Shown: positions 2,045 through 36,383 of the stretch, one piece after another
How the letters are laid out: the number at the start of each line of letters is the position of its first letter
How positions within the stretch are numbered: the stretch's first letter is position 1
NCBI RefSeq assembly: GCF_019679455.1
Contig: NZ_JAIEZQ010000001.1
Location: 496,001 to 560,000, forward strand
From: Nocardioides jiangsuensis
GTDB lineage: Bacteria; Actinomycetota; Actinomycetes; Propionibacteriales; Nocardioidaceae
Direction: 5' to 3'
Length of the DNA: 64,000 nt
Translations under genes and position numbers: made by a program
The notes under the pieces: generated by a model
Database searches by the model: none
The model's input: only the letters and a program-made list of their open reading frames with translations
What the model was told of the DNA's origin: nothing

Positions 2045-2449
2045 ATGAGCGAGCCGCCCGGTGCGCCGTACGGCAGCGGCCAGCAGCCCCCGGGCCCCGG
2101 CCCCTCCGGCTACCCTCCCCCGCCCTACGGCTACCGGCCGGGCGGGTACGTGCAGAACAACGGCAAGGCGGTCGCCTCGCTGGTCACCGGGATCGCGTCG
2201 CTGGTGCTCTCCTGGTGCTGCGGGCTCGGCCTCGTCGGGATCGTCGCAGTGGTTCTCGGGGTGAAGGCACGGGCCGAGATCCGCCGCTCCGGGGGCACCC
2301 AGTCGGGCGACGGGCTCGCCCTGGCCGGCATCATCACCGGCGCGGTGGCGATCGTGCTGGGGCTGGTCGTGCTGGTCGCGGTCGCGATCGCGCTCTCCAC
2401 CGGGATGGGAGAGACGGGCCCCGGGCCGGGAACCGGCACGGCGCTCTAG
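2045..2449 (+). CDS. DUF4190 membrane protein (copy A)
   Basis: Unknown role. 134 aa: a Pro/Gly/Tyr-rich cytoplasmic N-terminus (about residues 1-35), then two hydrophobic segments (about 42-68 and 90-118) around a short basic loop with KARAEIRRSGG and GDGLALAGIITG. This is the usual DUF4190 pattern. ATG 2045 is preceded by AGGAGG at a good distance, so it is preferred over upstream GTG 2009. Its TAG stop (2447-2449) is inside the 6-bp target of the adjacent IS481 element, which therefore sits directly against the gene without damaging it. A second DUF4190 gene (3657-3959) lies just beyond the IS. Confidence 0.85.
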   Translation: MSEPPGAPYGSGQQPPGPGPSGYPPPPYGYRPGGYVQNNGKAVASLVTGIASLVLSWCCGLGLVGIVAVVLGVKARAEIRRSGGTQSGDGLALAGIITGAVAIVLGLVVLVAVAIALSTGMGETGPGPGTGTAL

Positions 2450-2450
2450 C
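2445..2450. repeat. IS481 target-site duplication, left copy
   Basis: TCTAGC, repeated exactly at 3578-3583. It fits the NCTAGN target reported for IS481 of Bordetella and contains the stop codon of the upstream DUF4190 gene. Confidence 0.95.
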
Positions 2451-2470
2451 TGTGATGTCCAGCCACGTTG
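2451..2470 (+). repeat. IS481 left terminal inverted repeat
   Basis: Matches the reverse complement of 3558-3577 over about 19 of 20 bases: TGTGATGTCCAGCCA identical, then one mismatch, then GTTG. Confidence 0.9.
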
Positions 2471-2571
2471 GTCGAGAACCTGTGACGACACGATCTGATG
2501 TCGTAGATGGGTGAAGACCTCCCGATGTGGAGTGGAGCTGTCTAAGGAACCGCTCCCACCAGGAGGTCTTC

Positions 2572-3582
2572 GTGTCCCACGCTACCCACTCCAACGCCGC
2601 TCTCACGCCACGTGCCCGACTGCGGCTGGCGCGCCTGATCGTCGATGACGGCTGGGCCCCGGCTCGGGCCGCCGAACGCTACGACGTGTCATGGAAGACC
2701 GCGGCGAAGTGGGCGGCCCGCTATCGCGAGGAGGGGCCTGCGGGAATGCTCGACCGGTCCTCGGCGCCCCGCCATCAGCCGAACCGGACCTCGGCGCCGA
2801 TGGTCCGCAAGATCGTGCACCTGCGCTGGAAGCACCGCCTGGGGCCGGTCCAGATCGCCGACCGGCTCGGGATGCAGGCCTCGACCGTCCACGCCGTCCT
2901 GGTCCGGTGCCGGCTCAACCGGCTCGCGCATGTGGACCGGGCCACCGGTGAGCCGATCCGCCGCTACGAACACCAGCGACCCGGCGATCTGATCCACGTC
3001 GACGTCAAGAAGCTCGGCCGGGTCCCCGACGGCGGCGGCTGGCGTTACGTCGGCCGCCAGCAAGGCGACAAGAACCGGGCCGCGACCGCGGCCCGCACCG
3101 GTGCGCCCAAGAGCAGGTACCACCAACCGCTGGTCGGGACCTGCTACCTGCACACCGTCATCGACGACCACTCGCGGGTGGCTTACGTCGAGGCCCATGA
3201 CGACGAGACCAAGGAGACCGCCGCAGCAGTGCTGCGCAACGCGGTGGCCTGGTTCGCCGAACGCGGCGTGAACGTGCAACGGGTGCTGTCCGACAACGGC
3301 GGGGCGTACCGGTCGTTCCTGTGGCGCGACACCTGTGCAGAGCTCGGGGTCACCCCGAAGCGGACCCGGCCCTACCGGCCCCAGACCAACGGCAAGATCG
3401 AACGGTTCCACCGCACCCTGGTCGAGGGCTGGGCCTTCAAGAAGTTCTACAGCTCCGAGTCCGCCCGACTCGCCGCCCTGCCAGCATGGGTCCACGACTA
3501 CAACCACCACCGGCCCCACTCGGCCATCGGGAAACGGTCACCCATCACCAGGTTGGACAACCTGGCTGGACATCACATCTAG
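2572..3582 (+). CDS. IS481 family transposase
   Basis: DDE/RNase H-fold transposase that cuts and joins the ends of its IS. 336 aa from GTG 2572, which has AGGAGG six bases upstream. An in-frame ATG at 2527 is longer but lacks a ribosome site. Seen: an N-terminal helix-turn-helix (about residues 10-55, with RLARLIVDDGW and SWKTAAKWAARYREEG) and a second DNA-binding part. The rve-type core has Asp in HVDVKKLGRV, Asp in VLSDNGGAY and Glu in NGKIERFHRTL. The final Ile codon is half encoded by the target, and the TAG stop lies wholly in the target duplication, so the element depends on insertion at CTAG for termination. Confidence 0.95.
   Translation: MSHATHSNAALTPRARLRLARLIVDDGWAPARAAERYDVSWKTAAKWAARYREEGPAGMLDRSSAPRHQPNRTSAPMVRKIVHLRWKHRLGPVQIADRLGMQASTVHAVLVRCRLNRLAHVDRATGEPIRRYEHQRPGDLIHVDVKKLGRVPDGGGWRYVGRQQGDKNRAATAARTGAPKSRYHQPLVGTCYLHTVIDDHSRVAYVEAHDDETKETAAAVLRNAVAWFAERGVNVQRVLSDNGGAYRSFLWRDTCAELGVTPKRTRPYRPQTNGKIERFHRTLVEGWAFKKFYSSESARLAALPAWVHDYNHHRPHSAIGKRSPITRLDNLAGHHI
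3558..3577 (-). repeat. IS481 right terminal inverted repeat
   Basis: Reverse complement begins TGTGATGTCCAGCCA, pairing with the left end at 2451-2470. It lies inside the last codons of the transposase frame. Confidence 0.9.
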
Positions 3583-3583
3583 C
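3578..3583. repeat. IS481 target-site duplication, right copy
   Basis: TCTAGC, identical to 2445-2450. Bases 3580-3582 are the TAG that ends the transposase frame. Confidence 0.95.
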
Positions 3584-3656: not shown

Positions 3657-3959
3657 ATGAGCTACACGCCCCCGCCGCCGCCCCCGCCCGGAGCAGGCGG
3701 CTACGCGACACCGCAGACGAACAAGAAGGCGCTGTGGTCGATGATCCTGGGGATCCTCGCGCTGGTGTTCTGCGGGCTGGTCACCGGCATCCCCGCGCTG
3801 ATCCTGGGCAACGGCGCCAAGAAGGAGATCGCGATGTCCGGGGGCGCCCAGTCCGGCGCCGGGATGGCGCAGGCCGGGGTGATCCTGGGCTGGATCTCGA
3901 TCGTGTTCAGCGCCCTCGTGCTGGTCTACGCCCTGACCACCGGGTCCCTGGGCTCCTGA
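3657..3959 (+). CDS. DUF4190 membrane protein (copy B)
   Basis: Unknown role. 100 aa: a short proline run (PPPPPPPG), then two transmembrane segments (about residues 25-48 and 62-95) separated by GNGAKKEIAMSGGAQSGAGMAQAG. It closely resembles the loop of copy A (2045-2449: same SGG-QSG and LAG/QAG pattern), so the two look like tandem paralogues now split by the IS481 element. ATG 3657 has AGGAGA upstream. A 22-bp repeat array starts 5 bp after its stop codon. Confidence 0.85.
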   Translation: MSYTPPPPPPPGAGGYATPQTNKKALWSMILGILALVFCGLVTGIPALILGNGAKKEIAMSGGAQSGAGMAQAGVILGWISIVFSALVLVYALTTGSLGS

Positions 3960-3964
3960 CCTCG

Positions 3965-4030
3965 CGTTGAGAGGTCACTCGTTCGGCGTTGAGGCGTCAG
4001 TCGTGCGGTGTTGAGGCGTCAGTCGTGCGG
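3965..4030 (+). repeat. 22-bp tandem repeat array 1 (3 units)
   Basis: Units 3965-3986, 3987-4008 and 4009-4030, core TTGAGGCGTCAGTCGTG. The first unit has the outer-type variant (GAGAGG, CACTCGT). It starts 5 bp after the stop of the DUF4190 gene, in sense orientation to it, and ends 29 bp before the stop of the convergent DUF2752 gene. Related arrays are at 5849-5936 and 36296-36383. Confidence 0.95.
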
Positions 4031-5848: not shown

Positions 5849-5936
5849 CCGCACGAGTGACCTCTCAACACTTCACGACTGACGCCTCAACACCTCACGA
5901 CTGACGCCTCAACACCGCACGAGTGACGCCTCAACG
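5849..5936 (-). repeat. 22-bp tandem repeat array 2 (4 units)
   Basis: Units 5849-5870, 5871-5892, 5893-5914 and 5915-5936. The two outer units carry CACTCGT and the two inner ones CAGTCGT on the minus strand. The unit at 5915-5936 overlaps the 3' end of the ABC exporter gene and contributes its TGA stop (5931-5933). The other end is 52 bp from the hisI start, so the array lies in the hisI upstream region. Confidence 0.95.
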
Positions 5937-36295: not shown

Positions 36296-36383
36296 GCGCA
36301 CGAGTGCCCTCTCGACGCCGTACGACTGACGTCTCAACGCCTCACGACTGACGCCTCAACGCCGAACGAGTGACGCCTCGACG
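36296..36383 (-). repeat. 22-bp tandem repeat array 3 (4 units)
   Basis: Units 36296-36317, 36318-36339, 36340-36361 and 36362-36383. On the minus strand it begins 9 bp after the ftsQ stop, with outer units CACTCGT and inner units CAGTCGT, the same order as array 2. It separates ftsQ from the ftsZ promoter. Confidence 0.95.

Follow-up and report, generated by a model that had tools for sequence, protein, structure and literature searches.

An IS481-family insertion at a gene end in Nocardioides jiangsuensis with its transposase stop codon in the duplicated CTAG target

A target-derived stop codon, similar to the one described here, is known from IS870. Within the IS481 family, the closest described cases are ISLxc2 and ISLxx4 of Leifsonia xyli, for which it was reported in 2008 that the transposase stop lies inside the duplicated host site NCTAGN (PMC2516522), and TnRErm46/ISRe46 of Rhodococcus equi, reported in 2019, in which the TAG on the right ends the transposase and the TAG on the left preserves the stop of parB (PMC6794481). 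Bordetella IS481 is reported to sit in prn at ACTAGG and to disrupt it (PMC3279416). Most IS481 members make 6-bp duplications, and related elements have TGT...ACA ends (PMC10045372).

Here we describe an IS481-family element in a 64,000-nucleotide stretch of the Nocardioides jiangsuensis genome (hereafter, the window). It shares with ISLxc2 and ISLxx4 a transposase stop in a duplicated NCTAGN site, but it is a different element, and a saved host stop is absent from the available part of the Leifsonia description (PMC2516522). With TnRErm46/ISRe46 it has in common the CTAG target, the NCTAGN repeats and the roles of TAG on both sides, whereas the Rhodococcus element, in the portion of the paper available, is a resistance-cargo transposon with another inverted repeat and a more distant transposase (PMC6794481). 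Bordetella IS481 agrees in its NCTAGN recognition sequence and 6-bp duplication and differs in that its insertion inside prn breaks the gene (PMC3279416). The family survey matches the window element in duplication length and TGT...ACA ends; stop codons have 0 occurrences in the available part of its text (PMC10045372). As far as the available parts of PMC2516522 and PMC6794481 go, these papers already describe the arrangement, to which the window element adds a further, solid example. What we add is quantitative: how far the arrangement spreads, which degenerate cores occur, how scarce CTAG is within genes and how strongly insertions are enriched at gene stops; a search of titles and abstracts in the open-access literature found none that tied CTAG scarcity to IS481 insertion at gene stops.

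The element and its outside stop

The features of the locus are collected in Table 1. The transposase scores 336.6 bits against the NCBIfam model transpos_IS481 (NF033577; cut-off 224), which places it in the family. It is encoded by a single gene and combines an N-terminal HTH/leucine zipper with an integrase core (Pfam domains HTH_29, LZ_Tnp_IS481, rve and rve_3). Residues D144, D241 and E277, which we take from integrase-type transposases to be the catalytic ones, are invariant across 12 members, and the 35 residues that separate D241 and E277 agree with the DDE triad of the family, with its spacing of about 35 from the second D to E. Terminal inverted repeats of the TGT...ACA type and a 6-bp NCTAGN duplication are likewise present.

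Table 1. Features of the element and its host locus, in window coordinates
Feature	Position	Strand	Remark	Basis
DUF4190 gene, 134 aa	2045..2449	+	stop in left target copy	Pfam PF13828
Left target copy TCTAGC	2445..2450	.	TAG 2447-2449 = DUF4190 stop	sequence
IS481-family insertion sequence, 1,127 bp	2451..3577	+	TGT...ACA ends, inverted repeats matching at 19/20	
Left inverted repeat TGTGATGTCCAGCCACGTTG	2451..2470	+		sequence and inverted-repeat search
AGGAGG, Shine-Dalgarno-like	2561..2566	+	5' of GTG 2572	sequence; function presumed
Transposase gene, 336 aa	2572..3582	+	stop codon beyond element	NF033577, Pfam
Right inverted repeat	3558..3577	-	doubles as coding DNA for the transposase C-terminus	
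Right target copy TCTAGC	3578..3583	.	TAG 3580-3582 = transposase stop	sequence
Second DUF4190 gene	3657..3959	+		Pfam PF13828

From its GTG start, the transposase frame contains no stop up to the element border. The right inverted repeat encodes NLAGHH and the first base of the last codon; this last sense codon, ATC (3577-3579, Ile), combines an A of the element with the TC of the target copy, and the TAG that follows lies entirely within the right target copy, as in ISLxc2 and ISRe46. An earlier note, made from the sequence alone, had claimed that a TCTAGC duplication fitting NCTAGN borders the element, that the transposase lacks an internal stop, with an Ile codon across the border and TAG in the right target copy, and that the left hexamer carries the DUF4190 stop; base-level reading agrees with each of these claims.

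We propose that the DUF4190 gene received an IS481-family element in the TCTAGC that contains its stop codon. In this reading, the transposase targets NCTAGN, or more loosely NYTARN, with duplication of 6 bp. The phase in which the transposase gene crosses the right inverted repeat is fixed: the element's final A and two target bases form the last sense codon, ANY, and the following target triplet, TAR, is the stop. The core of the target, CTAG, is palindromic, and insertion in either orientation therefore provides a transposase stop; a host C-TAG stop survives in the left copy if the gene lies on the same strand and in the right copy if it lies on the opposite one. To this reading we assign a probability of about 0.93. 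We infer that the transposase frame is lastingly reliant on its target. A minimal mobile element can thus borrow a coding signal from the place in which it lands, and annotators should be cautious, as the transposase gene ends beyond the element border.

Spread of the target-supplied stop among relatives

A total of 197 loci were collected: the two copies of the own genome, 80 from GTDB contigs (the best 80 of 511), 29 from related genomes, 16 plasmid pieces (of 325 matching plasmid records), 29 from a phylum-wide family search and 41 from IMG/VR. Element ends were anchored on TGT/ACA together with the inverted repeat, and a direct repeat, if present, was also considered where the inverted repeat was weak; CTAG was not used; a free inverted-repeat search gave drifting borders, and the TGT/ACA-anchored ends were used in its place. 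Ends could be set in 151 loci, 39 had none and 7 lacked the C-terminus; removal of 6 duplicates from the 151 left 145 non-redundant loci.

In 125 of the 145, the stop starts two bases past the border (+2). The right cores in these 125 are CTAG (114), CTAA (8), TTAG (2) and TTAA (1), all four of which yield TAA or TAG in that phase, and the duplication is exact in 91 of the 116 loci that have both hexamers. The last residue of the transposase is T in 43, S in 42, I in 26 and N in 14, and only these four occur because the last sense codon must be ANY; the target stop thus explains why otherwise near-identical transposase copies differ in their last residue. The phase reaches down to 36% identity, and Proteobacterial members agree (L128, L129, L130, L135, L137 and L141). 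The only other copy in the own genome (G000:C1:1136126-1137263), 90% identical and frameshifted, is flanked by TCTAGC and CCTAGC and runs into the target TAG with Thr in place of Ile. The check that the earlier note had suggested, on other copies in the genome or relatives, supports its NCTAGN target and its target-supplied stop in almost every locus whose ends could be set, with a few relatives that stop early and a few that read on.

The own genome, which has only two copies, one of them broken, would by itself allow the target stop to be a chance feature of the window copy alone. Such a single-copy coincidence is refuted by the 125 non-redundant relatives, out of 145, that share the offset, and by the degenerate cores, which still give TAA or TAG; its likelihood is negligible; a target-supplied stop is not peculiar to the window copy and is common among the IS481-family relatives surveyed.

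Several loci depart from the pattern. Among the 20 of the 145 not counted as matching, six (L019, L021, L044, L055, L056 and L180) have frames that stay stopless until the contig breaks off exactly at the last base of the element, and in L011 the border is followed by N. For L010 and L132, the 145-locus tally took the wrong outer repeats: a separate TGT/ACA-anchored analysis gives +2 for L010, and L132 ends, by eye, in the TGA of its own flank GCTGAT. L132 comes from the Mycolicibacterium poriferae plasmid pJCM12603, where an IS481-family copy lies between long inverted repeats; its left flank is ATCAGC and its right flank GCTGAT, with no direct CTAG repeat. L070 and L185 have a same-frame stop three codons earlier. 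L108, L136, L183 and L193 end early, with a TGA in L183 (target GGTAGC) and L193 (TCTAGT); by eye, another frame spells the usual tail into the target TAG, and they are apparently frameshifted. Distant members, about 25-35% identical, stop elsewhere and therefore fall outside the pattern (L142, L181, L184, L186, L188, L190, L194, L196, L197 and L199); CTAG-flanked ends were recognised in none of these ten, and in L181, L184 and L197, at 28-30% identity to the window protein, the ends are doubtful.

The frames of L039 (target GCTTAG) and L201 (right flank AGGATC) continue past the border into neighbouring sequence, as does that of L085 (CCTCGA), which is outside the 145-locus count. The earlier note's claim that the target guarantees termination is therefore overstated, although a stop is supplied in most loci; the target-supplied stop lasts only as long as the target copy stays intact. 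L201, a piece of an IMG/VR contig, has an intact left target, ACTAGT, and its frame extends roughly 100 codons beyond the border, which would make it a natural C-terminal fusion.

The open frame itself may have arisen by erosion, the element's own stop having been lost without any benefit as the target always gave one. The shortened or frameshifted L070, L185 and L193 still have CTAG targets, so that target choice is independent of the open frame, and compact overlap of gene and repeat accounts for the phase without benefit. A phase held in members just 36% identical suggests constraint, but the overlap of the gene with the right repeat would hold the phase too. We regard erosion as a serious contender, at somewhat less than even odds.

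CTAG scarcity and insertion at gene stops

In 400 kb of the own genome, CTAG was observed 106 times, against expectations of 1012 (base composition), 425 (dinucleotide) and 304 (trinucleotide), and in the window 16 times against 64.9. The motif is thus depleted 3-10 fold in the own genome and is mostly found outside genes: 21 of 101 scored CTAGs lie within a coding frame, compared with 987 of 1200 random positions and with 72-89% for seven other palindromes.

By heuristic coding calls (80 open codons and third-position GC bias), made in the same way for insertions and controls, 34 of 72 insertions coincide with a host stop, 3 have an out-of-phase frame running in without a stop and 35 have neither. 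Among the control CTAGs, the corresponding numbers are 14, 21 and 72 for the 107 further ones located in these flanks, and 22, 21 and 58 for the 101 taken from the own genome; the host-stop excess of the insertions has a Fisher p of 8e-7 against the flank CTAGs and 5e-4 against the genome CTAGs. The set of 72 leaves out L060 (false ends), duplicates, flanks under about 300 bases, loci missing TA in either hexamer, and the plasmid, phylum-wide and IMG/VR loci. Frames of both strands appear to stop at the same CTAG in L031, L040, L062, L067, L078 and L092, in which both target copies may be host stops; such double endings occur in 6 of 72 insertions, 2 of 107 flank CTAGs and 3 of 101 genome CTAGs, a difference that is not significant.

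The simplest reason for the stop-site excess is selection against harmful insertions, and the excess is probably for the most part the survival of harmless ones. The transposase might instead actively favour CTAGs located at the ends of genes, guided by transcription, by DNA shape or by a more extended motif, over and above availability and selection. The share of host stops among insertions relative to genomic CTAGs (34/72 versus 22/101) speaks for such a preference; against it, selection filters the insertions that survive, the coding calls come from open frames and third-position GC bias rather than annotation, the genome control consists of a single genome, and the flank control may contain other mobile DNA. 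We consider active preference improbable. Also unlikely in our view is a wider proposal, in which a large IS481 clade that spans actinobacteria and Proteobacteria would have given up its stop codon to a target motif rare in coding sequence and common at gene ends; a single 4-bp palindrome would then be stop signal and gene-sparing address at once, with a stop-site excess beyond availability and possibly an active preference. A motif found mostly outside genes or on gene stops offers a simple reason for low harm. The idea that insertion spares the host gene is borne out for the window copy and many others; it does not extend to Bordetella IS481, which disrupts prn in the part of the report available (PMC3279416).

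The host locus

The order trpC, DUF4190, DUF4190 occurs without the element in two same-genus genomes, in both of which TGA is the stop of the first of the two DUF4190 genes. The empty TCTAGC site that the earlier note proposed to confirm in a sister strain was not found when the genus set (only four genomes, the own one included) and further relatives were queried with both DUF4190 flanks; as TGA ends the first gene of both element-free pairs, these do not reveal the exact TCTAGC that preceded insertion.

Between trpC (minus strand) and the DUF4190 gene (plus strand), the window carries GGGTCTCTAGACTCTCACG at 1948-1966. It is exactly kept ahead of trpC in two same-genus genomes and was found with one mismatch in 2 further genomes of 118 searched. 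Its position and conservation make it a candidate promoter or operator, and it itself contains a CTAG that is conserved.

The window also contains arrays with a 22-bp period, each of 3-4 units (GTTGAGGCGTCAGTCGTG plus 4 bases), in intergenic-looking places at 3966-4028, 5852-5936 and 36321-36383. Repeats of this type have 0 matches in three same-genus genomes and 100 matches in the own genome at <=2 mismatches, against 0 for the reversed control, and the arrays look like a recent, genome-specific repeat.
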